This document shows, one piece after another, positions 10,301 through 53,100 of a stretch of 64,000 nt of DNA. The notes below the pieces were generated by a model. The model made no database searches, was not told the origin of the DNA, and was given only the letters and a program-made list of their open reading frames with translations. Position 1 is the first letter of the stretch, and each line of letters begins with the position of its first letter. The position numbers and the translations under genes are program-made. This DNA comes from Mya arenaria. Lineage: Eukaryota > Mollusca > Bivalvia > Myida > Myidae. The DNA lies in contig NC_069126.1 in the NCBI RefSeq assembly GCF_026914265.1, positions 76,635,232-76,699,231 of the forward strand. The letters are read 5' to 3'.

Positions 10301-13300
10301 CAAGTATGAAGTTCCTGGGTCTAAGAGTTCTATAGTTATTGGGCGGAAACGAAGTGTGACGTACTGACTGACTGACTGACAGACTGATGGACTGACTGAC
10401 GGACAGGGCAAAAACAATATGTCTCCCCATGAATGGGGGAGACATAAAGATATTACACGCAAATGATTTTTACATGGAAGGTCACCACGACCTTGACTAT
10501 TGACCTTGTTACCCCCAAAACAATTGGGATCATCTAGACATCATGACCAACCTCACTTCAAAGTTTGGTGAACCTAGATCAAAGCATTCTCCTGATATTG
10601 CACGGAAATATTTTTTACATTAGAGGTCACAGCGACGTTGACCTTTGACCTTGTGACCCTCCAAAATATAGGAGTTTTCTAAACCTCATGATCAACCTCC
10701 CTACCAAGTTTGGTGAACCTAGGTCAAACCATTCTCAAGATATTGAGCGGAAATGTTTTTTACATTGGGGGTCGCCGCGACCTTGACCTTTGACCTAGTG
10801 ACCCCAAAAACAATAGGGATCTTCTACACCTCATGACCAACCCCCCTACCAAGTTCGGTGAACCTAGGTCAAACCGTTCTCAAGATTTTGAGCAGAAATG
10901 TTTTTAATATTGGGGGTCGCCGCGACCTTGACCTTTGACCTAGTGACCCCAAAAACAATAGGGATCCTCTACACCTCACGACCAACCTCCCTACCAAGTT
11001 TGGTGATCCTAGGTCATGCGGTTTTCCAGTTATCGATCGGAAACGAAGTGTGACGTACGGAAGGACTGACGGACTGACAGACTACCGGACTGACGGACAG
11101 GGCAAAAACAATATGTCTCCCCCAGAGAGGGGGAGACATAATAAATATCGTCAGAAAACTTGTTCTTGGAGGATGTTTTCGTCATAATGTTCATTCAGTT
11201 ATTGAAAGGATACACATCCCCAGAAGCCTGCATAAGAATATCCAGGTCACCTTGGAAACTGAGAACACTCTCATAGTCTGCCAGAAACCTGAAAATTTTC
11301 CTTCAATTATTAAAGAGAAAAACAAAATATGAGAAAGGTTATGCTCTTTAAATGTAATTAGAAATGTATTTGGCAGCTCATGAAATCAAATTCAAGATGA
11401 AATTATTTGAGCTTAATTAACCTGCATTACTATAAAACCTGTGTATCATAGATCACTTTTATAAATAGTGAGGTTGCAAAAAACACTTGTAAGTGTACAT
11501 GTGATCTACTCTGAGTGCTGTGTATTAGCCAGGTATGTGTAAGTTTATAAAGTAGAGGGTATCCAGGATTTATGAACAATTGTGATCTTCCTCATACAGG
11601 TATAAGTAGGCTCATCATGGTAAGGCGAACAGGAATTACATCTACAAAATCATGACGAAAGTATTTTGTGGAGGGGGCTGTTAGTGCACCTGTTTACATG
11701 AAACAGGGTTTGCAACCTACTTTCAAGACCACTGCCAATTCTGCAAAGTACACTACACATACCAGTACAAAAGTATCACAAGCACTCTTTTAATATATCT
11801 AAACCTGTTGCCAAAATAAAAGATTGCATTACCTCCTATCATTCAGCACAGTTGACATGAGGTGAAGGTAGTCTTCCACATAATCCATTGTCACACCCCT
11901 GGAAATAAAGTTATACATTTTCTCTGATAATAATGCAATGATTATTTCTTTTCTGGCAAATCATACAAGAGTTGTATATATTGAAACTGTTAATATAAAA
12001 GGACATTAAAATATGTTTTAATCACAACAGGTATTACAATACACCGCATGACTGTTAATATCCAAGATTAAACAATAACAGAAAGACAAGTATTGTTTAT
12101 CTAAGGACTGCCATGTAACATAACTCACGTCTTCTCTAGTAGTGGTTGTATACAGCAGTGGGCGATGACAGTCTGGAACACAGTTAGTAGGTGGGTCCTC
12201 CCCTCTAACAACTTCTTTTTCAATTCCTTCTTATCTCTACAAATGAGGAAAATAATGGTCCAGGAAAGTCAATTCAGAATTTCGAAACTTAACTAGAGCT
12301 ATCGCTGAATGTGATTAATACCCCCGAACGCCGCCTCTCATTATGATTTATCATTGTATAAAGTTTTATGCTATTCCATCTAGTAGTTTTCAAGTTACTG
12401 TCCGGACAAAAGTTTGACAAAAAAACCCACAGAAAAAGGCAATAACTCTGTAATTTGCTAAAAAAGTGTAGTGATTCATGTACATTGAACTCCTTCTCAT
12501 TGTGCTGTACCACTGTATAAAGGTTTATTACATTCCATCCGGTAGTTTTCAAGTTATGCTACGGACAAGAAAAAAGTAACAAAGGGCAATAACTCTGTAA
12601 TTGGCTGAAATAGAATTGTGGTTCCTGTACACTACACTTCCTCTCATTATGATCTATCACCGAATGAAGATTTATTAAATTCCATCCAATAGTTTTCAAA
12701 TTATGATCCAGACAAGAAAGAGTAACAAATGGCAGTAACTCTGTAATTAGCTGAAATATTATTGCGATTCCTGTACACTGCACTCCCTCTCATTATGATC
12801 TATCACTGTATGAAGTTTTATTAAATTCCATCCAATACTTTTTCAAGTTATGCTCCGGACAAGAAAAAAGTAACAAAGGGCAGTAACTCTGCAATTAGCT
12901 GAAATATAATTGCTTTTCCTGTACACTGCACTTCCTCTCATTATGATCTATCACTGTATGAAGTTTCATTAAATTTCATCCAATAGCTTTCAAGTTATGC
13001 TCCAGACAAGAAAAAGTAACAAAGGGCAGTAACTCTGTAATTAGCTGAAATAGAATTGCGGTTCATGTACACTGCACTCCCTCTCATTATGATCTATCAC
13101 TGTATGAAGTTTCATTAAATTCCATCCAATAATTTTCAAGTTATGCTCCGGACAAGAAAAAGTAACAAAGGGTAGTAACTCTGTAGTCAGCTAAAATAGA
13201 ATTGCGGTTCCTGTATACTGCACTCCCTCTCATTATGATCTATCACTGTATGAAGTTTTATTAAATTCCATCGAATACTTTTCAAGTTATGCTCTGGACA

Positions 13301-16300
13301 AGAAAAAAACAACAAAGGGCAGTAACTCTGTAATTAGCTGAAATAGAATTGCAGTTACTGTACACTGCACTCCCTCTCAGTATGATCTAGCACTGTATGA
13401 AGTTTTATTAAATTCCATCCAATAGTTTTCAAGTTATGCTCCGGACAAGAAAAAGTAACAAAGGGCACTAACTCTTTAATCAGCTGAAATTGAATTGTGG
13501 TTCCTGTACACTGCAATTCCTCTCATTATGATCTATCACTATATGAAGTTTTATTAAATTCCATCTAGTAGTTTTCAAGTTATGTTCTGGACAAGAAAAA
13601 AGTAACAAAGAGCAGTAACTCTGTAATAAGCTGAAATAGAGTTATGGTTCTTGTGCACTGCACTTCCTCTCATTGTGCTTTACCATTGTATGAAGTTTTA
13701 ATAAATTCCATCTAGTAGTTTGCAAGTTAATGTCTGGGAAAAAAATTGACAGCAAAAAACAAATAAAGGGCAATAACTCAGTAATAAGCTGAAGTAGAGT
13801 TATGGTTCTTGAACACTGCACTTCCTCTCATTGTGCTTTACCATTGTATGAAGTTTCAATGAATTCCATCCAGTACTTTTCAAGTTATACTCCGGACAAA
13901 AAAAGTAACAAAGAGCAATAACTCAGTAATAAGCAAGAATAGAGTTATGGTTATTGTACACTGCACTTCCTCTCATTATGCTCTATCATTGTATGAAGTT
14001 TAATCCAATTCCATCCAGTAGTTTTTAAGTTATGCTCCGGACAAGGAAATGGACCGACGGACCGCCAAACCGACGGATCGGCCACAGGGTGACTCCAATA
14101 TACCCCCTTCAAACTTAGTTTGTCGGGGGTATAATAATTACTTTGCTCTAATCAGCAGATTAAAAGTCACAGGAAAAACATGTATACACAGTTGGTGATA
14201 TCACAATGTCATTTATGTACAAGTAAAGAGTTGTTTTTTATTGTATCATCCCTTTCAGATAAGGGCCAGCCTGCTGGACTTATGAGACACCTTGATATAT
14301 GAACATCTTTACAATCTAGAACACAGTTAGCAAATGGGTTCTCCCCTCCAACAGCTCCTTCTTTAACATTGAATCAATGGCTACCCATTTATTTAACTAG
14401 CTGCTGGGTCAACCCCAAAAATCATTGCCAACTTTGGAGAAATCCGCTGAAGCGAAAGTTCTCTAAACTTAGTCTTTCAACAGATCAACTTACTTCCTAC
14501 ATATATATTAGGATAATTCTTGCCCTTTAAGATGATGGTTTTGTATAATTTGTATGGTTTTTACATTTTGGTCCTTTTTAAGGGTTTTGTTGGTCATTAA
14601 AAGTTACATTGAAATAAGAAAGAGCTAAAAATTGTTTTGCCATTTAAAGTTATTATAGACATCCGATCGCTTAGCTTCCAGCGGATTACGATGCAGAATT
14701 TTTTTCTCTTACAAATGCACTTTTCGAAATAATGAAGTTTTAAATATCTTTTGGTCCTTTTTGAACATTTATGTAAAATTTGAAGAAAATCGATGCCCAG
14801 AACATGTGTATTCAACTGTACGATAATGGTTTTATGGCCCACCCCGCGGCGCATTCACAGCAGGATAGAAATAATCCATCGGCAAGGTTTGACACTGGGT
14901 ATGACATGTGCAACGAAGTTTGTCATTTATAGCAATAAAATTATTCCATGACTATTTCGGATTTTTTTTCCCTTTTATTATTATTATATAATTGAAATTA
15001 TATATGATACTAGATTATTCATTTACATAAGTAATTAAGAAATGTCATATATTGTTTTTGTGTAAAAAAAGAAAATAATATATTTAGCAAAAATAATTCC
15101 CATTGTTAATCGCAATCACTATTACAGACAGTTAAAACGTAACACTTTTCTTATAAAATATTAATGTTTCAAGTTTCATTGGCAATTTTGGAAATACATA
15201 TTGGCTATGAAACATAATAAATAAGGGTATTCAAAGATAATAATTTACATATCTACATCGAGTCAACATGTTCATTAGTAATGCTTAAGTTCTATAATTC
15301 TTAATGGTAAACATTTTGCTCTACCATTTTGCACTCAACCAAACATGTTTATAATTATAATTATTTTGATTAGGCAAGAAATGTCTTACATGGAATTTTG
15401 TCGACATATTTTTAGTAACGAGTGCACTAGGTGTTCATAACATGTCAAATTGCCATTATATTAACGTGTTGTTATGGAATAAAAGGGTAAATCTGTCTTA
15501 TTGTCAATACAAGATTAATGACATTTTAACTTTTATCGTTAAAGACCGGTACTAAATGATATTAACTGCAGTTAATATTTCATTTTAGCTGTTCCTTTCC
15601 GAAATTTCAAACACAATTTTGTGTTACACTGCTATAAGAAAAATAACCAAAATGTTAAAATAAAGGTGTGGAAATGGCCCCAATTAAATGTCTTGATAAA
15701 CAATCAATTATAGACTTCCACAAAAAGACACAGAATATAATATGTAAAAGAAGTAAATTTATCAGAGATTATTTGATATTTCAGTTCTAACTAACGTTTT
15801 CCTATAGAACAGCTCTACCTAATTATGGCTAGATCTAAAATCGTCCAAAACTGAAATTTTCTATTGCAACTTAAAATAAAAGGACGGGTCAACTTTATGA
15901 CCCTCATAAATTCTGTATTTCTGACCTGCCTAATCTTACACTGCGTCCAGTAGATAAATAAGTGCTAAACTAGCGTATCTTAACGCTACTATTGCACTGA
16001 GAGGAGAAATCGATAGAGACCGTCGTTACCCTGATAAGCTCCAAAGTTGGCAATGATAGAAATAAACTTAAAGATCAAGTGAAAGTGCTGTTATGTCTTA
16101 AGTAAGTTATCAATACAAACATTATTAAGAGCAAATTTTTTGCCTAAATGGTAAGGGGTTGGGTATCATGCTATCCTTCAAATCAAATAGTGTACATTAA
16201 TTTAGACAAATTATGAAAAAAAAAAATCTTTTACATATACATGCTATATAATGACAAATTATGGAGCATAACATTCATGTACCCAATATTGAGCTCCCTC

Positions 16301-19300
16301 TGTTTCAATGCAGCAAACACCTCCGGGACCACTGCATCGTAAAACCCCGGAAGTCGCACGAGGAAATCACTGTCATGAAACGCTTGACATGCTTCTGGGA
16401 AAACATCCAGAAATGAGGTCAAGGTCACACCAATGTCGGACAGGTAGAAGATAATATCCCGGAACTCTGCAGTTGACATGGTAAGTAAGGAAGCCTTCTT
16501 GGTGCCCAGCTCACCCAGTTTCTGAGGTGACTGCGAGCCAGATTCTACCTGTATACCACATTTGGTAGTGATGTTGTCAAAAACCTATCAAGATAATAAA
16601 ATGAATTAGATAAAACTCACAAGAATGAAAATAATACATATGTTTATATATTTTTAAACCTATCTTTATAAATCAAATAACTTCTCAATAACGATGCTCA
16701 ATATACAGGTAGTGTAAAAACTAGGAAAAGACTAGAGACTCTAATAAAATGTCAAAACTTCACCATTTTAGTTATTAAAAGGCAAATAGAACCTTACACC
16801 TTGTAATTGGAAAGATAATGTTTATTATTTTTTCGAGGCCTTTTCACCAAAATCTTAATTTAATAAATCAATGTTTCTGAGAGTTTAAGATCAAATACTA
16901 GAATGACAACAATGAATATGATCAACAGTAATTTAATATCAAATGCTATTATCATTCTGGAGCTATGATAAGCCAAACGAATCACTGAGTTACTTGGGAG
17001 AGAGTGTTGATGGTATCAGCCAAGTCCTGGTGATAGCCGGGCTGTTGGGTGAAGATGTTGTCAATCATACGGGCCAGTAGCTGCTTGTTCCCAGCCCCAT
17101 ATAGCACACACAGGTCCAGCATTTTGGGGATGTCAAACAGGAAATTCTCGTACAGGATCTCTCCGAACACACTTGGTGTAATGTAACACTCCTGAAATGA
17201 ATTTTAAACTTATAAACAATATTAGGAGAGTATTAGGTGTTAAATTTCACTGTGAGAGAAACCTGATTACCCTAAGAAACCCATTGTCCAGCTTGGTGAT
17301 CAACAACAAAACTCAAAGGTTGTTTTTATCCCATACTATGGCAAAAAGGCAATACTAGTATCTAAATTTTTCAAGCAAAGCAAAAAAAAAAAGTACAGTG
17401 AACATTTATTTATTGTGTAATGTACTCTTTTTCATATTCATTACTGCTGGTAATACCCCTGCTTGTATTGAAGTACACTTTAACATATACCAGGCTGGTA
17501 TATGTTAAAGTGTACTTCAATACAAGCAGGGGTTCTAACAGCTGATAATTGTCAAACCTGAAAATGGCCTTTTGAGTATGAGGTACTAGTATTCCACCGG
17601 TATCCACCCCCTTTGAAATTGTTTCCAAAGTCATTTATTTTAACTTCATTCCAATGTATTTTCTAATGTTTCAGATGCAAAGTCCAAACAAAAAACAAAC
17701 TGTACAACACAGTACAATAGTCTGAAGTTGAAAGCTCGCAATCCTGATTTTAGGATTAAATCTGAACTTTAGAACCCCTGTTCCCAGTCTATAAACGAAT
17801 AACAGTACATTCAAAGTAAGATGATACCATCGAATGTGTGAAAATTTAAACATAATATAAAACATAGGTATTTATCTCTACCTTCGACTCCTTGTAAGTA
17901 GCCATTCTCAGACAGGACAGGAAGATGAGCCTGTGAACTTCATCATGGGTCTCCTTGGCAGCCGAGGGCAACTTGTGTATAGTCTCATATGACCTTGGGG
18001 CAAACCTCAGGTAGCTATCTAGACATCTATGAAGACTCGAGTCAAATATTGCCTGTTACAAATAAGAGGTTTATGCAAATAAGGGATAATATACTTTTTC
18101 AACTTTTGAATTTCTTTGAAATTCTGCTTAGTTTGTACGTAAAAAGATAAATAAATAATATACATATAATCATGTAAACAAAAAACTAAAATTATAAGTC
18201 TGTAAACAATGGAGGTCTTTTAAACCTTCAGCACTCTCCAAAACAGTACCAGTATATGTCTATAAATTAAATAGTTATATAACTTATAATGACTATGCAA
18301 AGATACCAACCTGGCACCAAAACTTTGCATGTGGCAACTGCAGCAGCCAGTGGATGTCCGCCTCTATAAACTTCAGCCTCTCCAGCCATTCCTCGTACTG
18401 TCCCTTGTCAGTCAGGTCAGTGGGTGGGGCCTGGTAGCTCACAAACTGGACCTCCTCAACCCATCGTTGATGCTGCAAATTAGAGTTTATGATTACAGAG
18501 AAAATAAGTTATTTCTACAATCTGATGAAACTCACACACTTAAGCACTTCAACCCAATGAATACACACTGACTCACAGTAAAGTACCAGAGAAAGGTTTT
18601 TTTTTCTGCATTGAGTACACCTATAACCCATTTACAGCTCTTTGCCTTGTTATAATGTGAATGATGTAGAGTTGAAAAGAAAACAAATTGTAGCTCAGGC
18701 TTAGCATCTTAACAATATAATGTACAAAGGAAGACTTTGTTGTTGTCTTCCTTTGTAGTGGAACCTGTTAGTGGAATATCTTTGTATCGGTATGACCTCT
18801 GCAGTTTTCAATCAATTTGTACTCTCTGATTTTCAGTTATTTCATTACCATTAAATAGTCATTGTGCTCCTGATCTAAAGTCATTTTTTGTAATCTATAT
18901 TTTATTTATCTTTAAAGTTATTTTATCATATGAAATACAATAATTAAGTGTATATAGACTCAATAAGTTAAAATACATATATATATCTTAAATCATTTTG
19001 TAACCCTCGGATAGCAATTATAGCAGATTCTTTAAAGTGACACTCTTCTTCAAAATCAATATATACACATGTAAAACAAATATAAATTTTGACTGATAAA
19101 CCTTCAACTACTTACTAAATAATGCATTTATGGAAAATATTAATTGCTATTAACAATATTATATGTGTTTTTAATAGCTGAAAATGCAAAAATATTAAAT
19201 GATTGGTGAATGCTAAAAGATTTACTGCGATTTACTATGGTCTCATAAGACAGAAATATCGTGTTTTCTGCACATTTCTTTAGAATTAAACTTGGTTTCC

Positions 19301-20368
19301 TTCATAAGCATCATTGTTTTTGACATTTGTTGAGTATATCCTTTTGGGTATATTAAAACAATGGTATTAAATGTGTTAAAACTTATTTGGGAGTAATAGT
19401 GCATCTTAAATGAGGTTGTTATTAAGCCTGCACGAGGTTTGAAATAACTTGATCAGTCGGTTGGTTTCAAGATAATCAAGAGGTGCAAAGTTCTTTGTGC
19501 ATTCCTGTTATGAAATGACTTTTAAGTGAGGTACGAAATGACTTTTTAAAGGTTACAAAATGACCGAAAATCAGAGGGTTTGAAACGACTAGTTCCCACT
19601 TCTGTTGTACCCCACCTGGTAGGATTTTAATGAGTTAATAATTAATTAATAATAAAGTGATCAAACACAAGCACAAGCGTTACAATTGTATATAAATTCT
19701 TAACGATATACATCTCCTATCTGATCCACATTATAAACATATTTGTGGTGTGGGTCCAAAAAAGGAAAAATAGTACTGGATAACTGTCTCTGTGGCCTAG
19801 TGGTTAAGTGTCCGCCTACAGAGCGGGAGCTAGTGGGTTCGATCACTGGCTGCATCATACCAAAAGACGTTAAAAGTTGGTACAAGTACATGTAGCTCCC
19901 TTGCCTGGTGCTTGGCATTTTAAGGGTAGTGCTTGGAAAAGTGGTGTACTCAGCACTGGTTTAACCCAGGAAAGTTGTACCCCGTGTATCGGTGATTTAC
20001 ACCGAGCACGTAAAAGAACCAAGGGGTCTTTTCGAAAAAGAGCTAGGGTATCGCACCTGGGCTTCCTTGTATACCACCACTGTCTCTTGACTTCAGCGTG
20101 CTATCCCTTCAGCAAAAACAAAGCACCCCGTTGGAAATAAGTGCTTGCACTTTCACGGGTTTCCTTGACCGCAAGGTCTTAAGAAATACATACATACATA
20201 CATCTTTACACATAATTCGGACAAAGCATATATTTCGGATACTTTTTGAAGCTTTCTTATTTTTCTGTCTACTATATTTAATTATCAAAGACTTACCAAT
20301 GCGGGAAATGTTTCTTTTGATTTATTACTATCAATAACAACGTTTTGTTTGTCGAGAGGGACACTCAT
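4305..20368 (-). CDS. ASCC2: activating signal cointegrator 1 complex subunit 2 (ASCC2), 15 coding exons
   Basis: Exons (high to low): 20368-20297, 18472-18311, 18052-17882, 17191-16994, 16584-16283, 12236-12129, 11898-11833, 11288-11214, 8828-8633, 8327-8223, 7824-7721, 7336-7214, 6525-6271, 5222-5147, 4607-4305. All junctions are GT-AG and in phase, giving 2316 nt, 771 aa (human 757). Family landmarks seen in order: FPALHQRW near residues 22-28, HWLLQLPHAKFWCQ at the end of exon 2, FGEILYENFLFDIPKMLDLC in exon 4, RRFLADYE near 359, a CUE domain around 461-505 (LLPELGEGFIELCLEELNYD), then EDEYDDTYD and GADDADSADE, then a basic Gln/Gly-rich tail. Known role: the CUE domain binds K63-linked ubiquitin; with ASCC3 and TRIP4 it acts in ribosome quality control and in recruiting ALKBH3 to alkylated DNA. 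Exon 8 uses a GT|GTATCC donor. A transposon lies 50 bp upstream of the ATG. Identity is secure; exon 1 is the least certain exon. Confidence 0.96.
5729..5963 (+). mobile_element. tRNA-headed SINE, family 1, 5'-truncated
   Basis: It contains a pol III B-box-like GGTTTGATTCC followed by a conserved body (CGGAGGGACATTAAATGAG, then GACTAACAATCTTATCGGAG) and ends near ATTATAAATAAGC. The same body is found in the opposite orientation at 58775-59036, which shows it is dispersed. This copy lacks the A box and lies in ASCC2 intron 13, antisense to the gene. Confidence 0.75.
6697..7098. repeat. 24-bp minisatellite in ASCC2 intron 12
   Basis: About 17 head-to-tail copies of ACACCATTAACAGCCATGAATGAT. 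Copies are almost identical (one C/A and a few G/A variants), so the array is young. Because 24 is divisible by three, frames crossing it stay open on both strands, but these are repeat artefacts and not genes. Confidence 0.95.
9070..11145 (+). mobile_element. hairpin-ended tandem-core element (pearl/Helitron-like), dimeric, ASCC2 intron 8
   Basis: The left edge has CTTGTCTCCCC near 9076. A first tandem block (about 9240-10370) has 145-172-bp units with landmarks TATGAAGTTCCTGGG, TTATTGAGCGGAAACC and CCTTGACCTTTGACCTA. It ends in GGACAGGGCAAAAACAATAT and a hairpin (ATGTCTCCCC / GGGGGAGACAT, 10418-10446). A second block of 145-bp units with a different consensus (CTACCAAGTTTGGTGAACC) follows and ends in the same terminal sequence and hairpin (11112-11140). 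A tandem core with a terminal palindrome is the architecture reported for bivalve pearl elements and Helentron-type non-autonomous elements; that class assignment is inference. No protein is encoded. Confidence 0.7.
9916..9930. promoter_or_regulatory. perfect palindromic oestrogen-response-element match
   Basis: AGGTCACGGTGACCT matches the consensus AGGTCAnnnTGACCT at all positions. It arises inside the repeat unit of the intron 8 element, and related imperfect versions occur in neighbouring units (for example 10217-10231). TGACCTTTGACCT in many units is a direct repeat of the half-site with 1-bp spacing (DR1). Match to the motif is seen; function is not shown. Confidence 0.45.
12290..14135 (+). 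mobile_element. hairpin-ended tandem-core element (pearl/Helitron-like), ASCC2 intron 5
   Basis: Starts near AACTAGAGCTATCGCTGAAT with TAATACCCCCGAACG close to the left end. The core is about 12 copies of a unit of about 147 bp (CTCTCATTATGATCTATCAC, TTCAAGTTATGCTCCGGACA, GGCAGTAACTCTGTAATTAG). The right end is a GACCGACGGACCG stretch and then a nested hairpin (TATACCCCC ... CAAACTTAGTTTG ... GGGGGTATA, 14099-14132). Core units differ by about 5-20 percent, so it is older than the minisatellites. No coding capacity. Confidence 0.75.
14311..14380 (-). pseudogene. decayed duplicate of ASCC2 exon 6
   Basis: On the minus strand this stretch encodes LKKELLEGRTHLLTVF, then a TAG stop and IV, against LKKKLLEGRTHLLTVFQTV in the real exon 6 (12236-12129). 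In the 18 codons compared I count about seven silent changes, two replacements and the stop. A possible acceptor (GGTAG) sits at the position matching the exon 6 acceptor. The similarity fades beyond the Val codon and no donor is clear. It lies in intron 5, upstream of exon 6 in transcript order, so it was probably a tandem exon duplicate, since lost. Confidence 0.75.
14421..16057. mobile_element. putative DNA transposon bounded by 19-bp inverted repeats, ASCC2 intron 5
   Basis: ATCATTGCCAACTTTGGAG at 14421-14439 recurs as its exact reverse complement at 16039-16057. The 1.6 kb between is AT-rich and has no frame I can assign to a transposase. No target-site duplication is clear, so superfamily is unknown and a chance or rearranged inverted pair cannot be excluded. 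Confidence 0.5.
17455..17533. repeat. perfect 39-bp-arm palindrome, ASCC2 intron 3
   Basis: The left arm 17455-17493 (begins ACCCCTGCTTGTATTGAAG) and right arm 17495-17533 are exact reverse complements with a single spacer base. Weaker pairing continues into the flanks (CTGCTGGTAAT against CTAACAGCTG). No second copy was seen in the window. Confidence 0.9.
19036..19405. mobile_element. TTAA-flanked MITE, family A copy 1, ASCC2 intron 1
   Basis: Flanked by TTAA at 19032-19035 and 19406-19409, the target duplication of piggyBac-type elements. Ends AGTGACACTCTT / AATAGTGCATC are imperfect inverted repeats. The body matches 36596-36969 nearly end to end, for example ATTAAATGATTGGTGA. Non-coding. 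The superfamily assignment rests on the TTAA alone. Confidence 0.7.
19783..20206 (+). mobile_element. tRNA-headed SINE, family 2, ASCC2 intron 1
   Basis: The head has a pol III A box (TGGCCTAGTGGTTAAG) and B box (GGTTCGATCAC) at tRNA spacing. A body of about 300 bp follows, and the copy ends in a short-period tail of ATAC repeats near 20187-20206. The length and tRNA head with a conserved middle domain fit molluscan SINEs such as the MetaSINE type; that family name is inference. It is antisense to ASCC2 and looks full length. Confidence 0.8.
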
Positions 20369-20418
20369 TTTAAGGTTGTGCAAGAAGATTACTACAGGGC
20401 TACATACAACTAATTAGA

Positions 20419-22430
20419 GGCTACTAGACAAATCGGCCCCTTACCAAATCGGCCCCTAGCTCAAACGGTTACCTTTTCGGCCCCTTACCAAATCGTCCGC
20501 ATCCCGTAGACGTTTCGGCCCCTGATTACCGCGACGTTTCGGCCCTTATTTCTATTTTTTTTTTTTTTTTCTAAATATAAGTAAAAAACATGTAATTTCA
20601 TTTTTTTATTTTAATAGACAAAGCTATATACATGTATACAAAGGTACTGTATAGATAAAAATAGATTTAATGAAAATATCTGTACACTTGAAAACATGTA
20701 AAGATTTATTCACGAGATTTTTTCATAAAAAGAAATAGAGTTGAAGAAGAAATGTTTAAACTTCATTTTTTTTCAAATAATCTTTAAATATTATACATAA
20801 CTATGTTGCTAATAGTATGTATAATGACATGTCCATTGTCTAACATCAGTCTTGACCAAACACCTATCGCCCGCCGTAGAGGGCACCAACATTTTTCAGG
20901 AACTCCTCGCAGGTGACCTTATGCGAATCGTATGAGTCCCACTCATCCATGATCCTGGCGTTGATGTCTCTGTAACGCTCTCGACATAAGTTATACATTT
21001 TATGAAATTCAGTTATTTATATTCAAATCAGGTAAGGATGAAAAAACTACTAGTATTATTAATCTTATATTTAATACGTATGCAAATCCGTACTGGCTTA
21101 AACGGTGTTTTTAGACAGATGGTCTTATGGCGAATTGTCACATTCCACAGAGTTATCAGGCGTTGGAATTATGACACTTTGTGTTTACAAACTTATAAAT
21201 ACGTCTACAAGGTTTGTTCCGACTTTCCCAACCGCTAATTCTCACACTTAAAGATTAATACCAATTATCTCTTCGCACCTCAAACAGAATATTATTTCAC
21301 TTTTTTATTACGGATATATTGTTTTACTCTTTTTAAAATGCATATTTATTGTATAATATCTGTAGAACTACCAAGTTGTCACTTGTTTGCAATTCATATC
21401 TTTAAAACCAACATGTTTTCCTAATTATGTATAGATGATCCACTAATTGTTAAAAATAATAATTAATAATTATTCTGGAGCAATTGTATGCCACACAGAT
21501 AACAAACTAATGGTTGAAACATAAAGGCATTTTAAAAAAAACCTTGCTTAAGCATAAAACGCATATATGTACGTATGGCATGTGGCTATAACATAAGTTC
21601 TATTGTATCATAAGTTTGATAAAAAATATTGTGAGAATGTTATCGATATTAAGGTATAATATAAAAAGGTAATGATTCCAGTGTTATATATACCGCAAGG
21701 TTCATGCTGCGTGGTACATACAACACAAAACGAACAAGAATATGTACATCGCGTATGTTCTAAGGATCAACAGAATTATGTTTAAACACTTCCGTTTATG
21801 ATACAATAAACATAACAAAGAAACATAGCAAACATTTTATACTAGGGAATCACAAGTCAAACACGCGTGTAATCAGGAATGATAGCAAAATAAAAACCAC
21901 GAATGCCAGTCCAGTGTCAATGCTTTGATATACCTTTGGCGCCACGTGCATTTTAATCTAAATTATATGAGTTATGGGAGTACTCGGCGGTAAACATAGC
22001 CATACATTTTCTTTGAAGTCTTTAATGATCAATTAATAATTAACATTTATAACATATAAACTTTCTTAGATTTTCTAACATTTTATATTAAAATCAGGGT
22101 TAATATTTATTTAGATTTTAATTATATTTTTATATCAGTCCTATCAATGTTTTTCATGCATATTTGTCTATTTGTAAATTTAAAGACTTTATTTACAACT
22201 TATTTACAGATCTCATTTACATTTATAAGACGACCTACAATGTTTTTCTTTATACTCAAGATAAAAAATAAAATAAAATTAAGGGGCCGAAATGTCTCTG
22301 TTAAAAATCACTAAGGGGCCGAAACGTCTCGAGTCATTTTAATTAAGGGGACGAAATGGCAGGGCCGAAACGTCTTAGGGGCCGATTTGGTAGTAGGCCG
22401 ATTTGGTAAGGGGCCGATTTGTCTTGCTCC
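20419..22430. mobile_element. 2.0-kb TIR transposon with iterated GGCCCC termini, Mutator-like
   Basis: The element is bracketed by an exact 9-bp duplication CTAATTAGA at 20410-20418 and 22431-22439. Both termini start GG and soon reach GACAAATCGGCCCCTTACC in inverted orientation. The inverted repeats (about 20419-20550 and 22281-22430) are built of five to seven iterations of a TTTCGGCCCCTT-like motif. A 9-bp duplication and long, internally repeated termini fit the Mutator-like group best. The only coding trace is the 44-aa minus frame at 20864-20998. It lies between the ASCC2 start codon and its original upstream sequence. Confidence 0.85.
20864..20998 (-). pseudogene. 44-aa C-terminal transposase-like fragment inside the TIR element
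   Basis: The frame reads MYNLCRERYRDINARIMDEW and ends EEFLKNVGALYGGR before a stop. Its charged, codon-biased composition stands out from the AT-rich surroundings, so it may be the last exon of the parent element's transposase. I cannot assign the family from this fragment. Confidence 0.4.
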
Positions 22431-22849
22431 CTAATTAGACAGGTTTATTCCCCGGAAAATAACCCGGAAAACCAGGAATAGTTTTAAAGCATTTTGAAAG
22501 TGCTATATATATATATGTATCATACACTACTTAAGATTTTTTTTATATATAGTTGATATGATAGTTTTCATCATTGATTAATTATAAATGTATAAATCAA
22601 ACATTGTCAGTAGACTTAGTAGAATCTTCTATGCCGCAATTTAACAAAGACGATAATTATATAATTAAGCAAAATATGTATACTTTGTCAATCAGATAAG
22701 GGAGGCTGTTATATAATAACTGATACCACTTAATTAAGTAATTGGTTACTAATTATTACTGTTTGTGAGCTTCCCCATTTATTGCACATTGTATGTTTAT
22801 ATGCTATGGACACAGTATAATGTTTTACGCAATAAATTAATAGTATCGA

Positions 22850-24125
22850 ATCGTATCGTATCGCATCGTATCGTATCGCATCGTATCGTATCGTATCGTT
22901 TCGCATCGCATCGTATCGTATCGCATCGTATCGTATCGTATCGTATCGTATCGTATCGTATCGTATCGTATCGTATCGTATCGTATTGTATTCGTATCAT
23001 ATCGTAATCGTATTCGTATCGTATTTTATCGTATCGTATCGTATCGTATCGTTTCTATCTTATCGTATTCGTATCGTATCGTATAGTTCCCATCGTATCG
23101 TATCATATTGTATCGTATCGTATCGTTTCGTATTCGTATTCGTATCGTATCGTATTCGTATCGTATCGTATTGTACCGTATCGTATCGTACCATATCGTA
23201 CCATATAGTTTCGTATCGTATCGTATCGTATCGTACCATATCGTACCGTACCGTACCGTACCGTACCGTATTGTATCGTATCGTATCTTATCATATCGTA
23301 TCGTTTCTATCGTATCGTATTCGTATTCGTATCGTATCGTATCGTATCGTATCGTATTCGTATGGTATCGTATCGTATTGTACCGTATCGTATCGTACCA
23401 TATCGTACCATATAGTTTCGTATCGTATCGTATCGTACCATATCGTACCGTACCGTACCGTACCGTACCGTACCGTACCGTATTGTATCGTATCGTATCT
23501 TATCATATCGTATCGTTTCTATCGTATTCGTATCGTATCGTTTTCGTATCATATCGTATCGTATCGTATCGTATCGTATCGTATCGTATCGTATTCGTAT
23601 CGTATCGTATTGTACCGTACCGTATCGTACCATATCGTACCATATAGTTTCGTATCGTATCGTATCGTACCATATCGTACCGTACCGTACCGTACCGTAC
23701 CGTACCGTACCGTACCGTACCGTACCGTACCGTACCGTATTGTATCGTATCGTATCTTATCATATCGTATCGTTTCTATCGTATTCGTATCGTATCGTAT
23801 CGTATCGTATCGTATCGTATCGTATCGTATCGTATCGTATCGTATTCGTATCGTATCGTATCGTATCGTATCGTATCGTATTTGTATCGTATCGTATCGT
23901 ATTTGTATCGTATCGTATCGTATTAGTATCGTATCGTTTCTATCGTATCGTATTTGTATCGTATCGTATCGTATTCGCATTCGTAACGTATTCGTATCGT
24001 GTCGTATCGTATCGTATCGTATCGTATAGTCTCGAATCGTATCGTATCATATTCGTATCGTTTCGTATCGTATTCGTATCGTATCGTATCGTATCTTATT
24101 CGTATCGTATCGTATCGTATTCGTA
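22850..24125. repeat. TCGTA pentamer array with higher-order repeats
   Basis: About 1.27 kb made almost wholly of TCGTA, with variants TTCGTA, ACCGTA, TTGTA and CCATA. Variants recur in a fixed order: the block TTGTACCGTATCG ... CCATATAGTTTCG ... CCGTA run ... TTGTATCG ... CTTATCATATCG ... TTTCTATCG starts near 23170, 23379 and 23609. This gives higher-order units of about 210-230 bp that differ mostly in the length of the CCGTA run. Long frames on both strands are repeat artefacts. Confidence 0.95.
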
Positions 24126-30623: not shown

Positions 30624-33600
30624 ATGGGGGCGTGTACAGGATGTGGGCAGCTTGTCTTGGTGCTCATAAATATTCTTTTCTCAGTAAGTATTACGCTTCG
30701 TTCTGTTACCAAGTTATTATACTTGTTTTGTTTTATTTTCTGGTGTTTTGGGGAGTTAAAATTCCCCAACGGTAAATGTATAACTGTTTCCGCAAATATG
30801 CCGTAGGAAGTAAATGCTGCGAATTCTATTTACACTCTGCTACAGCAGATGAAACATGATGAACACTGACTGATGATCTGATGGAATTTCGATCTGTTTC
30901 AGGTTGTAGGTATTGCGCTTCTGGTGGTGGCCTGTCTGGTCAGGTTCGGCTCGGGCGTGTTCGATTCCTACCTAGAGGACGGGTAGGTTCTGCTCAAAAT
31001 ATAAAAAAAAACAATTCTGTAAATACGGAAACGTTTGGCAAGTGGAAGTTCTTTATATGGTTTCGTGTGCTTATATGTAACGCTTTCCTACAACCCGATT
31101 TCAGTAATACTTGGCAGAAAAAACACAAACATACGCTAATAAAAGAGCATTTAAACTAGTATATAGCCTATATCACTTTATCAAACGATTTAAAAACTAC
31201 TTCGAAGATCGTGAAGTGCAATTCTATAAAAATGGTCAACACCATGTAAAATATATTCATAGGTATACTGAGTTTAAGCTAGCCGTGGAAATCGCCACCA
31301 AGGGTAAACTTGACATTAGCGGCCTTGACATTGGGGACATCGTCGGGGACGCCGCTATTGCCTTCATCGTCATCGGTGCCTTTTTCTTCGTCCTCGGGAT
31401 ATTCGGATGTTGTGGGGCAATCTGCAAAGCAAAGAGCCTGCTTGTGATTGTAAGTGGCTATCTTGGCAACTATTACGAGACTAACTGGCTTGTAATTGTA
31501 AGTGGCTATCTTGGCAACTATTACGAGACTAACTGGCTTGTAATTGTAAGTGGCTATCTTGGCAACTATTACGAGACTTACTGGCTTGTGATTGTAAGTG
31601 GCTATCTTGGCAACTATAACGAGACTAACTGGCTTGTAATTGTAAGTGGCTATCTTGGCAACTATTACGAGACTAACTGGCTTGTAATTGTAAGTGGCTA
31701 TCTTGGCAACTATTACGAGACTAACTGGCTTGTGATTGTAAGTGGCTATCTTGGCAACTATAACGAGATTAACTGGCTTGTGATTGTAAGTGGCTATCTT
31801 GGCAACTATAACGAGACTAACTGGCTTGTGATTGTAAGTGGCTATCTTGGCAACTATAACGAGACTAACTGGCTTGTAATTGTAAGTGGCTATCTTGGCA
31901 ACTATTACGAGACTAACTGGCTTGTGATTGTAAGTGGCTATCTTGGCAACTATTACGAGACTTACTGACTTGTGATTGTAAGTGGCTATCTTGGCAACTA
32001 TAACGAGACTAACTGGCTTGTGATTGTAAGTGGCTATCTTGGCAACTATAACGAGACTAACTGGCTTGTGATTGTAAGTGGCTATCTTGGCAACTATAAC
32101 GAGACTAACTGGCTTGTGATTGTAAGTGGCTATCTTGGCAACTATAACGAGACTAACTGGCTTGTGATTGTAAGTGGCTATCTTGGCAACTATAACGAGA
32201 CTAACTGGCTTGTGATTGTAAGTGGCTATCTTGGCAACTATTACGAGACTAACTGGCTTGTGATTGTAAGTGGCTATCTTGGCAACTATTACGAGACTAA
32301 CTGGCTTGTGATTGTAAGTGGCTATCTTGGCAACTAGTACGAGACTTACTGACTTGTAATTGTAAGTGGCTATCTTGGCAACTGGCTAACTTGGCCAACG
32401 CTTACATGAAAATAAATAGTTGTTTATACACTATTCTTTGAAACCATGATACAGGGAGTGTATTCTTTTGTACTGTATATAATAAATAATGATAATAATT
32501 GTAACTACATATACTGTTTTTATACCAATACTATTTGTAATAATTACTTCTGTTTGCAGTACGCTGTGGTTCTTGGGGTCATTTTCTTGGCTGAAGTCAT
32601 ATTTGTTATACTTCTGTTCACAATGAAGTCAAAGGTAATAGTTCTTTCAACGTTGTTGAACATATGTATTAAAGCTGCACTCTCACAGATATACCATTTT
32701 TACAACTTTTTATATTTTTTTTTGTTTTTGAAAGAGCAATTTTTTGCGTATATATCTGCAAACCAATGATATAAGGTTGCTGACAAAAATCAGATCGTAG
32801 ATTTTCATATTTCCGTTCGAAAATAAATGTTTTATGGCTTAAACCGTTACTAACGGTAATGCATAAAACATCAATTTTTGAACTTAAATACAAAAATCTG
32901 CGATCTATTTTTTTTGTCAGCAGTCTTATATAACTGGTTTCCATATGGATTTTCGCAAAAAATGTTTCGTTCCAGGACAAAAAATAAAAAAGTTGTCAAA
33001 ACTTTCAATCTGTGAGAGTGCAGCTTTAAGGAGTGTTTGTTAAGTATTCATATGGTTTTAAAAAGTTTCAAGTGACATAAATTGTAAGTTTATTTCACAT
33101 TTACGTGGTAAAAATATAAATATCGGGGATTTCAAATAAATGTTATTTGCATTTCAAACTCGGTGGCATGAAATAAATAATCATGCTGATAGATTGAAGA
33201 TTAATATTCTCGTAAAATTGCCCCAAACTAGGCCGCCAGATTACTTAAGTATCATTGTCTTTAATGAAATACGACCGATGGATTTAAGAGATCCGACCCA
33301 CTCAAATGTGACTTAAAATGTTTGGTGACCCCATATTAGTTTGAATATCATTTAAAAGGGTTTTGTGTGAAAAATGTCCATTAAGATATATTAAGGTTAT
33401 ATTTTTTATTTCTATGTTTAGGCCTTCGAAAAGGCAGTTTTAGTCCGTTTAAGGTGGAAAAAGAGCACATATTCTGGAATAACTTTATGTATAATGTTCG
33501 TTGGTCATTTAGATTTCATCGCACATTAGTAAGCGCCAAAACAAAGGATTCACGTCTGTTCCTTACTTCCTTCTAAATTGGAAGCAATAAAAAACTAACA

Positions 33601-36354
33601 CAGTAACATAATTACATTCTCGTTCACATTCAGAGTGATGATGCTACGCGTTAGATTTATCACGATCAACCCTCTGATGAATGAGAATGCATAATTATAG
33701 TTTAACCATTTTGTGTTTAAAGATAGACGGATGGATTCAGGGGCCGTTAGAAGACACTCTGAATGAGAAGTACACCGGAAGTAACGGCTCTGACCCCTTC
33801 ACACTCACCATCAACTTCGTCATGAGGGAGGTACAGTGCATCCATGTATTGGTGGCCATCTCACACTTGTGGAGTCCTAGGGAAGCGTTCTCTTGGCCCA
33901 TTGGAATGGTCACTTATACACTTAAACAAGCAGCAGCTGTCTGGACGATCAACGAGTTTATGTCATTCTTCAGTCTGTATATTGTTATTTACGCATTTGT
34001 AAAACGATTCAGTGTAGAACGGCCTGCAGACAGTTAAGTCTTCTCTAATTTTGATGAAAATGATAAATATTTGACAAAAATTAAATAAATAATATTGTGT
34101 GTTTTTTACAAACTGGCCGTATTCTAACAACCATTTCTTTCCTCAGTTCGAGTGTTGCGGAATAAAGGGTCAGGGCGACTTTAACAGCACGACGAGCTGG
34201 CGACGGCCCGACCCGGCCATGGTGGTTCCTTATGTGTGCTGCATGGACACCAATGATACAAACTGTGTCACAAATCCTACCAGCAATAATTCTTACACAG
34301 AGGTTCCTTTCACTGTTTTATTTGAATTCGTTTGCACTTATTTTACCTTGATGTAATAATGTCGTGAATCAAACCAAAGATCTATCACTTTATAATATCC
34401 ATATTTTGAATTATAAAGGATGTACAGTCGAATCTAGTTATGTCGAACACTGTTATCTCGAAGTTCCGGTGGCTTTTTTGGTATATGCTGGTAAAAAATA
34501 TACACTTCGTATATCTGTTATATCGAATGTTCGATATTACGAAGGATTTCCTGGGGTCCCAACGACTTCGACATAGCGAGTTTTGAGACCAAATGTAAAA
34601 GCTATCAATGATCATTATCATATCCACCAGGCAGACAGTCTGTCCGTCTGTCATGTCACCCAAATATATATGACATTGATGTAGCCATCACATTTTTGTT
34701 TGGCTTTCAGGGTTGCTACAATACTGTAAACAATTGGCTGACAGACAATAAGAACGTTCTGATTGGTGTAGGGAGTGGCGTCGCCGCCGTGCAGGTATGA
34801 CGTCATCGAACGCCATATTGCATAACCTTTTTTTAGTTATTTTTTTTACATGATATAAATAGAAAATACACCATAATAAAACCTATCGTAGTTTTTTTAA
34901 AAGAAGCCAATAAGCTCATTTTTTAAATAATTTAGTACGCCGATAACAAAAACTGAAATATTAATGGAATGCTTGGTCTTGATGCTTTCAGATGCTGCTT
35001 ATTATATGTTCTGTCGTCATATGCTGCCAACGTCGGCGGGAGAAACTTGACGACAGCTATGACAGTAAAGACGATATACCGATACAGCCGTACAGGTAAG
35101 GCAGCGGTCAACATTGGTCGTCAGCCTCCCAGGTACCGATACAGACGTACAGGTAAGTAAGCGGTCAACATTGGTCGCCAGCCTTCCAGGTACCGATAAA
35201 GCCGTACAGGTAAGTCAGCGGTCAACATTGGTCGTCAGCCTTCCAGGTACCGATAAAGCCGTACAGGTAAGGCAGCGGTCAACATTGGTCGTCAGCCTTC
35301 CAGGTACTGATACAGCCGTACAGGTAAGTCAGCGGTCAACATTGGTCGCCAGCCTTCCAGGTACCGATAAAGCCGTACAGGTAAGTCAGCGGTCAACATT
35401 GGTCGTCAGCCTTCCAGGTACCGATACAGCCGTACAGGTAAGTCAGCGGTCAACATTGGTCGTCAGCCTTCCAGGTACTGATACAGCCGTACAGGTAAGT
35501 CAGCGGTCAACATTGGTCGTCAGCCTTCCAGGTACTGATACAGCCGTACAGGTAAGTCAGCGGTCAACATTGGACGTCAGTCTCCAAGGTACCGATACAG
35601 CCGTACAGGTAAGTCAGCGGTCAACATTGAACGTCAGTCTCCAAGGTACCGATACAGCCGTACAGGTAAGTCAGCGGTCAACATTGAACGTCAGTCTCCC
35701 AGAACCGATACAACTGTACAGGTTAGTCAGCGGTCAACATTGGTCGTCAGCCTCACAGGTATGAATTAATACTCATCGGATAACCCCGGCAGTACTCTTC
35801 TCCATCATGCTTTAGCGTGTATTGCAATGTAGGTGCCAACAAAGATATCAAGTTGCCCTCTTTGCCTCCGTAGGATTTCTTAAAAAAGGCTATCTATTCC
35901 GTCATCCTCCTAGAATAGTCGAATGTTTGCGGAATATTCGCTTACTAATCCAGTCGTTACTGGGAGAGAGCGTGTGCCGTGAGTGGCGATGACGTAGACT
36001 AAGTTCTTTCATTTGATGTGTAGTTTACATATAAGCAAAAAGTACGAAACTTTAAAGTACATACTTAAGTTGCCGTTATGTGGTCGTTTACATACAAAAC
36101 ACATAATTGAATATCCTAGGAGGGAGTTACCGGATCCCCACGGGCACAACAATCCCGGGTACCATGGGGCCGGGTCCTACCCCGACCTCCACCGGGAGCC
36201 GGGCGGATATGGAGCGAGGGAGACCGGATTCCCACAAGACAACCTGGACGAACAACCACGAGGCCGGGGCCACTCGCAGCCCTACCAGGGACGGACGGAC
36301 TTATACACGGGGCCACCGGAAGCGTATGGCGGGGACAGACGTTATCATCGATAA
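30624..36354 (+). CDS. tetraspanin with long Gly/Pro/Arg-rich tail, nine coding exons
   Basis: Exons: 30624-30683, 30903-30982, 31263-31449, 32560-32634, 33723-33830, 34147-34302, 34711-34794, 34992-35095, 36120-36354. Phases are consistent; 1089 nt, 362 aa. Four membrane segments at about 10-34, 77-95, 110-131 and 238-262; GCCGA after TM2 (95-99); large extracellular loop with CCG (173-175), CC (201-202), C210 and GC (223-224), the diagnostic tetraspanin pattern. The N-terminal MGACTGCGQ has Cys suitable for palmitoylation. The cytoplasmic tail (about 100 aa, residues 263-362) is far longer than the usual 10-20 and is rich in G, P, R and Y. Tetraspanins organise membrane microdomains. Two oddities: the donors of exons 3 and 8 are each amplified as minisatellites, and exon 6 ends at a weak GTTCCT donor. 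The subfamily is not assigned. Confidence 0.94.
31441..32391 (+). repeat. 48-bp minisatellite carrying 20 copies of the exon 3 splice donor
   Basis: Twenty 5' splice sites of the form ATT|GTAAGT occur exactly every 48 bp from 31449 to 32361. The unit spans the last nine bases of exon 3 (CTTGTGATT) and the first 39 of the intron. Copies differ at only a few positions (TAT/AAT, GTG/GTA). Reading on from exon 3 stays open for 11 units, each adding 16 residues (VSGYLGNYYETNWLVI), until a TGA near 31966. Use of any of the next ten donors would therefore keep the frame. Confidence 0.97.
32673..33025. mobile_element. TTAA-flanked palindromic MITE, family D copy 1, tetraspanin intron 4
   Basis: Flanked by TTAA at 32669-32672 and 33026-33029. 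Termini AGCTGCACTCTCACAGAT are perfect inverted repeats, and homology between the arms extends well inward (ATCTGCGATC / GATCGTAGAT-like). The whole element folds back on itself. 353 bp, non-coding, piggyBac-type target. An older copy lies at 41418-41760. Confidence 0.85.
34423..34580. mobile_element. possible pogo/Tigger-like MITE fragment, tetraspanin intron 6
   Basis: ACAGTCGAATCTAG and repeated TATGTCGAA / TATATCGAA motifs on the left, with TTCGACATAGCGAG inverted on the right. This resembles termini of pogo-group miniature elements, but only one copy is present and the ends are imperfect. Confidence 0.35.
35076..35760 (+). repeat. 57-bp minisatellite carrying about 12 copies of the exon 8 splice donor
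   Basis: CGTACAG|GTAAGT recurs every 57 bp from exon 8's own donor (35095) through 35152, 35209 and so on to 35665, with a last variant at 35721. The unit includes the last ~20 bases of exon 8 (ACCGATACAGCCGTACAG), the donor, and a CCTTCCAG that could serve as a 3' splice site. Read on from exon 8, the frame meets TAA immediately after the donor, so retention would yield a receptor with a very short tail ending QPYR. Confidence 0.97.
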
Positions 36355-50100: not shown

Positions 50101-53100
50101 TCTTAAATAAGATTGAGTCCAACAAGCAAAGACTTCTTTAAGAACTATCACATTAACAGGAAAGATGACACTAAGATTTCAGACTGTCTAAATATGTATG
50201 CAACCGTCAAGGGATTTCAATTTTATTTCACACAAATCTTTGCAAGTCCATATTGATATAAATGTGTTCTTTATACCTAAATTACTATGGCATGTAGTTG
50301 AAATTCAGGTCATGTGTTGATTTCATGTACGCATTTGTGCTTCCTGATTTCAGTGTTGGGTCACTGATGAGCAATATAACCTACTTGCTGGCTCACATTG
50401 AACGAAGGTAAATTAAACTCATTTACTGACCTAGAGTGTTGAAGAAAATAAAGTGGTTTAATTGTAATAGTGGTGTTGTTGTTGGCTTGCACTAACCTGG
50501 GTGATATATTTTTTTTGAAAGATGTTTAAATAAATTGTATGTCAAAGGTTACAATTCTGCACTATATGAGCATATGTAGGAAGGCCTATAACACTGAACC
50601 GAAGGTTTTTTGTCCCACGCCCAAAGGTAGGTGTGTGTTTGTGTGTGTGTGTGCATGCGTGCGTGGGTGTCCGGGCATCATAGTTATTGCCATTTGTCCA
50701 TTTGTTAATTATCATACTATATTTTGTCCGGAGCAAATCTTGAAAAGTCTTTAAGATTTCGACTTCAAACTTTATATACAGAAATATCTCATTGAGGTGA
50801 AGTGCACAGATTCCATAACTCTGGGTGCAGTATGTTTTTAAGTTATTGCCCCGTTAATGTTCATTGTTATCCTTGGTTGTAAGGCGATGTTCTCAAATGG
50901 GCGGGGAATTATAAGTATCTGTCATGTGTTTCCGGTACAGATAGAAAAATCCGACCCAAGGGCACGCGCGTAAGCCGGTAACCAGGCTTGCCGAGTTATG
51001 GTCATGCAGCGTGCCAGAGGGTCGGATTTTTCGATCCGGACCGGAAAAACATGATTGATATTTTTTCTTGCATACCTAAAATTATGAAATTGTGGGAAAA
51101 TTGACGTAGAAAACGTACTTTTGTACATTTTACCAAAAAGCGCGTGCGACGTTGTGTACTGACGTCATAAAGCGCAGTAATTTTAAATCACTATTGACGT
51201 CAAATAGTTCCTTTAAAAATCGCGCTTTTACGATTATTTATTTTCAATTTTAATTAAAATTATTGTATACTTATATTTTTGATTCCGCTTTATTGAAATT
51301 GCATAATATACTTTTCATAAACCATACAATAAAAGAAATAAAAAGTGGCGCTTTGTTGCGCGTGACTCATCTTACATGGGGGGTGTAAGATGAGTTTTTC
51401 CAGCACCGGTCAAATGACCGGAAACACACGTCCTGTATGCAAGAAAAGGCAGTCTGTGACCGATCTTGTTGAAATTGATAGAAGTAAGCATTGAAACAAG
51501 TTCAATAAACTTTTGTATCAAAATACCAAGATTGTGTTATTTTATTTATATCATCAATTCTGATTTGATAAAATAAAATGTAACACACATTTTCAATGCT
51601 ATTTATTTATGACGTCAAATTAAAAGTTATTAGACTACTACTAACAGGTAAATTACTAATATCATGATGTTGTTTCATGATGGCAACATCAATTATGATT
51701 AACTCATTTTAATTCCATAATAATGGCAACTGTAGCCAAAAGTGCAAAAAGAAATCCTGCATTGAAATGAGGGCCAGGGGGGTAATTAATCAAGATTTCA
51801 CCTAGGATTCCCGATGAAATGCCCCCCTGGTGTTCAAATGCAAGGTGAGGGCAAAGTGAGCTTTGTAAAATTTAAGTCTCTTAAATTGGTTCTGTTTTAG
51901 GGCTAAACATGAGACAGTTGTAAAACCTACTATTATATGTAGTAACTACTATCATATACTTATACGTACACCAATACACCAACTGACTTTGAATAGAATA
52001 ATGTTTATGAAATACTGTCCATTGTTCAAATGATAAAGCCTGCCTTATCAACCAAAATATATTTTTTTCTTTAATTTTTCTTTAAGATTTCTCAAGATGG
52101 TGTTGTTTATCAAGTACTGGGCTCACACAAATGACATGGCTGGTTCTTTGCCGCGGCCGTTGTCTGTAACCAGTTACATGCTCACCCTCCTCATGATCGC
52201 GTACTTCCAGAAACTAAATATCCTACCCCCACTGAAGGAACTCTACAAGGACCCTTGTATGTATATAATTGGCATCCCAAAGAAAACAGGGACAACAGCT
52301 TAGTATTTGGTTAAAAAGCAAGACCATAAGAAAACTGAAAGAGAAACATTTATTTGTGATTCTGAGCTTTTTTGCTGTTTGACATAAAATTTACATGAAA
52401 TTGTTCTGACATAAAACACAGATGTCATTGAGCCGAATGTTATGAGGAGTGGTATATTTTAAGTTAAATTGTACTTTAAAATGTGCTATATACACACATA
52501 CTTTTAAGATTAATTTACTATGATATTCTATTGAATGATCATTTTTTATGGCTTCTGTTCACTCCTCACTTTTTGTTGTTTGCCTCCGCTGAGCCTGGCA
52601 GTCCCAATAGCATCTGTTCACTACTCACTTTCTGTTGTTTGCCTCCGCTGAGCCTGGCAGTCCCAATGGCGTCTGTTCACTACTCACTTTCTGTTTTCTA
52701 CCTCAGTTGAGCCTGGCAGTCCCAATGGCGTCTGTTCACTACTCACTTTCTGTTTTCTACCTCAGTTGAGCCTGGCAGTCTCAATGGCGTCTGTTCACTA
52801 CTCACTTTCTGTTTTCTACCTCAGTTGAGCCTGGCAGTCCCAATGGTAACTGGGAGCAGCTCTGCAAAATCACGTTCAGGGAAGACATCGCGGCCTTGAT
52901 GTCAAGCAACTGTAAGTAGATGTGGTCTGTTTTATGTGAACATTTGAGACATCATCTGCAAAAATGAGTCATGTTGAGGTATTTATGCTTACAACAAAAC
53001 ACAATTTGATCAATAGATGTAATCACAAAACAAAGTTTAAACAATGTGTTATTCAATTAAAGATCCTTAAAGAAAATATGTAAAAATAGCTACAATTGTC

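Follow-up and report, generated by a model that had tools for sequence, protein, structure and literature searches.

An array of 20 near-identical splice donors at the end of exon 3 of a tetraspanin gene of the bivalve Mya arenaria is, with a probability that we put at roughly three in four, a mirage minisatellite, in which we infer that the exon-adjacent copy at 31450 is the donor in use and that the other 19 copies are intron. Most likely, the array leaves the gene's message unchanged. We call the whole stretch of DNA that was analysed, 64,000 nt in length, the window, and positions are those of the window unless another locus is named. The gene and its first array (array 1) are laid out as follows, with a slash marking splice junctions:

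30624-36354, + strand: whole tetraspanin gene, 9 exons, GT-AG introns, 362-aa ORF
30624-30683, + strand: exon 1 (gene model)
30903-30982, + strand: exon 2 (gene model)
31263-31449, + strand: exon 3, ending ..KSLLVI/GTAAGT (gene model and paralogue exon ends)
31440-32383, + strand: array 1, 48 bp x 19.7 copies, 97% matches (TRF)
32560-32634, + strand: exon 4, acceptor TTTGCAG/TACGCT, start of TM3 (gene model and Pfam on the joined ORF)
33723-33830, + strand: exon 5 (gene model)
34147-34302, + strand: exon 6 (gene model)
34711-34794, + strand: exon 7 (gene model)
34992-35095, + strand: exon 8, ..DDIPIQPY, 3' end inside a second array (array 2)
36120-36354, + strand: exon 9, C-terminal tail

The joined ORF matches the Pfam family Tetraspanin (PF00335) with an E of 6.5e-43 and contains ECCG, and with it the CCG motif of the family; its PDB matches include TSPAN7, CD53 and CD9. 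In alignments to the PDB tetraspanins, KSLLVI is the last stretch before the junction of exons 3 and 4, which falls where TM3 begins. The CD53 and CD9 alignments cross this junction with no gap, and TSPAN7 shows one-residue gaps near it. An earlier, sequence-only reading of the region had placed possible inserts within the short loop between TM2 and TM3; the alignments correct this, in that an insert would enter where TM3 starts and not in mid-loop. Intron 4 contains nested inverted repeats at 32669-33029, with outer arms of 51 nt (82% complementary) and inner arms of 36-57 nt, which look like a foldback or MITE-like element. Elsewhere in the window, TRF finds a satellite of the pentamer GTATC at 22843-24125 (about 253 copies), and there are minus-strand ORFs in 4195-21016 that we take to resemble ASCC2; one piece of these ORFs had no match when it was compared with Pfam.

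The anatomy of array 1 is largely as the sequence-only reading described it. Twenty tandem copies of the donor were claimed, and GTAAGT does occur 20 times within 31000-32700, at positions 31450 + 48k and thus at exact 48-bp spacing, with the last at 32362; the TRF match figure likewise agrees with the near-identity of the units. The exon boundary needed a correction of one base, in that nine exon bases per unit and a donor GT at 31449 had been given, and we find that the array takes in ten exon bases (31440-31449) and that GT begins at 31450. On the minus strand, a frame of 368 aa is open at 31279-32385, across array 1 and most of exon 3, and it is likely a by-product of the stop-free unit. 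We find it hardly credible at all that the length of array 1 is an assembly artefact. It is general knowledge that long near-identical arrays are easily mis-assembled, but the unit variants here are interspersed in a non-repeating order, and all 8 matches to the array sequence in the genome search lie at one place in an 81-Mb contig, with the reservation that the copy number may still be off.

The position of the exon end is supported by paralogues, and also by the gap-free alignments to CD53 and CD9. The sequence-only reading had left room for relatives in which exon 3 ends elsewhere, and this is not what we found. The exon-3 homologues in a near-identical pair of loci, L044 and L045, end with ..KILLVT/GTACGA and the one in L052 ends with ..KTALTV/GTAAAT, in each case at the homologous codon as judged by eye. 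Because the paralogous exons stop at the same codon, we consider 31449 to be the true end of exon 3, and therefore the first donor to be the ancestral one.

The read-through frame is open to unit 11, as had been claimed. Splicing at any of donors 2-11 would leave the frame intact and lengthen the protein by 16 to 160 residues, and each unit ends with NWLVI, so the start of TM3 would be rebuilt after an insert. Stops lie in the 11th and 19th units, and with any of donors 12-20 the protein would stop after residue 281. Six columns vary among the 19 full units, one of them synonymous, three non-synonymous and two stop-making, against a ratio of 30:105:9 (synonymous:non-synonymous:stop) for all 144 possible single changes. 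With these six columns in 19 units, purifying selection on the frame is not visible. All 20 donors are intact, and distance from the exon has left no mark of decay on the splice signal. We considered constraint on the donor core and rejected it; the first 23 columns are invariant, but we estimate that none of the six variable columns would fall within the nine-base core by chance about 1 time in 4.

Published rules for the choice among near-equal donors bear on which of the 20 is used. The rule that we draw on rests on human genes (PMC9225289). In the excerpted text of that study, splicing in five minigenes that each had two identical CAG/guaagu donors, with introns of 365 nt, went entirely through the upstream site, and exon definition is said to favour the donor nearest across the exon when the donors are near-equal in strength. 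In the survey of the same study, downstream donors are the preferred ones until the data are restricted to donors of equal strength, and in 86% of events the main donor is the stronger one (PMC9225289).

If donors 2-11 were often used, the gene would produce tetraspanins with 1-10 extra 16-residue segments at the TM2-TM3 junction, in numbers that vary between individuals with the length of the array, and the isoforms would carry VSGYLGNYYETNWLVI segments. The human gene IFI6 (6-16) is a possible model, as Turri reportedly described in 1995 a minisatellite there whose unit supplies several splice donors. Array 1 is like IFI6 in this respect, with donor-like sequence (GTAAGT) in 20 of 20 units. 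Two downstream repeat units of IFI6 have been reported as donors, with three mRNAs as the result (PMC4526556, in excerpt), and this precedent, the in-frame unit that is open to donor 11, the WLVI at the unit end that rebuilds the start of TM3 and the identical GTAAGT in all 20 donors speak for the longer proteins. IFI6 uses its downstream units, whereas the downstream use of array 1 is not favoured in our analysis. The frame shows no purifying selection, two of only six variable columns make stops, CD53 and CD9 align with no insert at the junction, the minigenes prefer the upstream donor (PMC9225289, in excerpt) and, on general reasoning, units that are open and divisible by three in length are no rarity under chance alone. 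We therefore think that frequent use of these donors is unlikely. Of the original proposal, the 20 donors, the in-frame unit and the near-identity stand, and the length-variable protein is possible and not favoured given the frame without visible purifying selection.

The length of intron 3 depends on the donor: it is 1110 nt from the first, and 246 and 198 nt from donors 19 and 20. The site could thus be noisy or harmful, with distal donors, above all 19 and 20, chosen through intron definition, giving stop-containing transcripts that are removed by decay, and lowering expression. Under intron definition the downstream donor is favoured (PMC9225289, in excerpt), donors 12-20 all lead to the stop after residue 281, and the U1 pairing of the donor ATT/GTAAGT is only middling (-6.5 kcal/mol, among the weaker of the gene). 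We judge this very unlikely nonetheless, since an intact ORF has been kept despite two such arrays, and use of donors 19 or 20 would lengthen exon 3 to 1051-1099 nt when the preference is for shorter exons, according to the excerpts of the same study (PMC9225289).

The repeated donors might also act as a regulatory RNA element, through the binding of many U1 particles or through folding. Four units fold better than their dinucleotide shuffles (z -3.28, with 1 of 200 shuffles as good), and the modelled accessibility of GTAAGT is 0.25 at donor 1 and 0.09-0.17 at donors 2-18. However, shuffled sequences no longer contain the repeat, and z is inflated if the unit is self-complementary; the modelled accessibility rises to 0.40 and 0.23 at donors 19 and 20, and a single fold computed over 1.1 kb cannot be relied on. 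We regard a regulatory role of this kind as highly improbable.

The same gene has a second array, which begins 19 nt within exon 8:

35077-35761, + strand: array 2, 57 bp x 12 copies (TRF), repeats the donor CCGTACAG/GTAAG(T/G)

Here the outcome of using a downstream donor would be different, as donors 2-11 all run straight into TAA (..DIPIQPYR and stop), giving a protein of 285 instead of 362 residues that has lost the exon 9 tail; the stop lies 53 nt or more ahead of the junction. The 12th row is one base out of register and was left out when we tabulated donor outcomes, and the last unit has GTTAGT. Because all of donors 2-11 would truncate the protein, use of the first donor is suggested, and since the ORF of the tail has been kept, the downstream donors can hardly be much used. 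Donor strength argues the other way: U1 pairing is -14.2 kcal/mol at the second donor and -12.0 at the first, and by strength alone this would favour the truncated form. In 8 of the 12 units there is also a CCAG/GTAC, and the AG and GT pair would make a 20-nt pseudo-exon. One can imagine the two arrays as two splice ladders, in which donors 2-3 of array 1 give low-level steps of 16 or 32 residues and array 2 switches between a long and a short tail (..QPYR), both tunable by copy number between individuals, but we hold this to be decidedly unlikely.

A third array in the window lies at the acceptor of another gene:

52548-52846, + strand: array 3, 59 bp x 5.1 copies (TRF), repeats the 3' splice site CTACCTCAG/TTGAGCC
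52825-52911, + strand: probable exon of a poly(A)-polymerase/TUTase-like gene (splice signals, open frame), first 22 nt inside array 3

The three copies on the exon side keep the acceptor AG, which ends at 52706, 52765 and 52824, and the two distal copies have lost it and have CCG. The probable exon is collinear with the pieces on either side of it, which match MTPAP-like_central and PAP_assoc, and it aligns within the match to PDB 5a2v, weakly in this stretch.

We propose that array 1 is a passenger, close to neutral, that sits on the edge of a coding region. A short tandem duplication across the junction of exon 3 and intron 3 would have come first, and slippage or unequal exchange would then have expanded it to 20 units. 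The copy at 31450 would serve as the donor, because among equals the nearest across the exon should win given the long flanking introns, and the remaining 19 copies would be removed as intron and be free to vary. As the array grew, intron 3 may have lengthened from about 0.2 kb to 1.1 kb and passed from the short into the long class, and the longer intron would in turn favour the first donor. In such arrays generally, the copy that adjoins the coding part would keep its function and the others would be free. The decay of units with distance from the exon (the stops in array 1, the GTTAGT in array 2 and the lost AG in array 3) supports the passenger view. Against it are the downstream donors of IFI6, the preference for downstream donors in the human survey where strength is not equalised (PMC9225289), the weakness of the array 1 donor, unlike the strong ones of the minigenes, and the fact that all 20 donors are intact. 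The short introns from the last two donors also count against it, as intron definition would favour the downstream donor.

Minisatellites across exon-intron boundaries are known from lancelets, where excerpts of two papers describe mirage minisatellites in Adh3, troponin C and the globins BflGb6 and BflGb9, and similar repeats in PGBD5 (PMC3087553, PMC3902484). The name mirage comes from the lancelet Adh work (PMC3087553, in excerpt), and as far as these excerpts go the repeats are reported not to disturb mRNA splicing (PMC3087553, PMC3902484). The lancelet repeats and the arrays here have in common a tandem unit that crosses the border of exon and intron, at splice sites of both kinds (5' and 3'), and many copies that carry splice signals. 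The units of arrays 1, 2 and 3 take in 10, 19 and 22 nt of exon, and their lengths of 48, 57 and 59 bp fall within the 10-160 bp given in the excerpted text of PMC3087553. Both types of boundary are found in one genome, with donors in arrays 1 and 2 and an acceptor, that of a probable exon, in array 3. Unlike the lancelet cases, array 1 is in a bivalve, its unit is open and in frame and GTAAGT is invariant across its 20 copies, and two arrays are in one gene. In human genes within segmental duplications, variation of boundary repeats can shift splicing (PMC2812944, in excerpt); those repeats are unlike array 1 in that they belong to primate paralogues, have a mean of 4 copies of 30-bp units and formed novel introns. 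Among the matches listed, we found no mollusc mirage case in the open-licence literature, and the arrays probably extend the mirage type from lancelets to a bivalve, a new lineage for it.

We searched the assembly (1,216,080,610 bp in 18 contigs) for similar arrays and found the same architecture at five further places: array 2, array 3, a cathepsin L-like exon (L060), the L044/L045 pair (counted once) and L136. Those outside the window are:

G000:C8:32097300-32101300, reverse strand: L060, cathepsin L-like exon, donor array of 44 bp x 43.7 copies
L044 (C3) and L045 (C5), from about 2193, reverse strand: 35-bp array at the donor of the next exon
G000:C4:38504470-38504678, reverse strand: L136, another tetraspanin, two perfect tandem copies of an 18-bp unit that span the homologous exon 3 donor

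The L060 exon ends with ..LPAAVDWKAKGYVTEVGNQ/ and the unit of its array takes in the final 31 exon nucleotides together with the donor; a second array, 46 bp x 28, lies 5' of this one. Its best PDB match is cathepsin L1 (E 1.3e-4), and its peptide had no Pfam match past the cut-off. In L044 and L045 there are about 32 copies of the 35-bp unit in the stretch examined, and by a simple pattern a donor-like site is kept in 18 units of L044 and 14 of L045, the rest having decayed. The flanks of the two loci are identical in 2075 of 2206 columns, and the order and spacing of the units differ; the two may not be alleles. This shows turnover of units between the two tetraspanin copies, as the sequence-only reading expected of such arrays. 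L136 is an early-stage case. It was the only one with a donor-crossing repeat among 17 tetraspanin loci, a sample of the 37 PF00335 matches that was chosen for a match end near the end of exon 3, and not every one of the 17 has a clear exon end.

We examined 16 other donor arrays among the matches listed (contigs to C11, three twin pairs included). One has a sure exon (L060) and one a probable exon (L062, with a Q-rich ORF), and for the remaining 14 a start within an exon was not demonstrated. Six peptides from donor-array loci were compared with Pfam, and none had a match past the cut-off. On C2, C4, C6, C8, C10 and C16, several exons and arrays are present twice per chromosome, about 0.5-6 Mb apart, as if they were uncollapsed haplotypes or a large segmental duplication.

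We also asked how often such arrays arise. Counting minisatellites with a period of 10-100 and 5 or more copies, with overlapping TRF rows merged, 3 of the 8 longer minisatellites in the window cross a splice junction. This is more than crude placement predicts (P 0.0004-0.002, post hoc and with assumed junction numbers of 50-90), and a seeding bias or function may lie behind the three arrays. A genome-wide excess of donor-containing arrays was rejected on reversed-motif controls. CAGGTAAGT three times at 30-60 bp spacing was counted at 273 places and its reversed control at 392; the single motif occurs 8209 times genome-wide against 10355, and distinct arrays on C1-C6, counted by eye among the matches listed, number 9 (array 2 included) against 11, with no excess in any of these counts. 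This motif test detects perfect CAG/GTAAGT only, and array 1, L044 and their like escape it.

As a separate sample, we took 60 loci (38,470 bp) from 105 mitochondrial-carrier matches; apparent twin pairs were represented by one member each, and a few more matches were omitted. A TRF array with a period of 10 or more was present in 16 of the 60, of which we judged 10 by sequence and 6 from coordinates, and none of the 60 carrier loci had an array across a splice junction. In L103 an array stops about 20 nt before an acceptor, and in L114 a two-copy repeat stops a few nt before one. Four of the 60 have a tandem repeat across the stop codon, L115 and L119 being paralogous:

G000 C2: L072, 38 bp x 2.1 copies, from the last codons, stop codon included
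G000 C14: L088, 37 bp x 4.1 copies, from the last codons, stop codon included
G000 C16: L115, 134 bp x 1.9 copies, from the last codons, stop codon included
G000 C4: L119, 119 bp x 1.9 copies, from the last codons, stop codon included

The existence of stop-codon arrays suggests that it is the edge of the coding part that matters, rather than the splice signal as such. The motif counts and the carrier loci speak against splice sites being favoured in general, and our reading is that seeding is random and is tolerated by selection at coding edges, with a local cluster in the window.

Arrays across exon-intron boundaries are known but rarely described repeats, and what stands out here is an unusually regular ladder of 20 donors. 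In the tetraspanin gene, near-identical donors compete within each of two arrays; leakage would be tolerable in array 1, which is in frame, and would meet an immediate stop in array 2. The gene is thus a natural test of how the spliceosome chooses among equal 5' splice sites. With copy numbers of 2, 20, about 32 and 44, the arrays provide cases for the model that new introns start from repeats of this kind.
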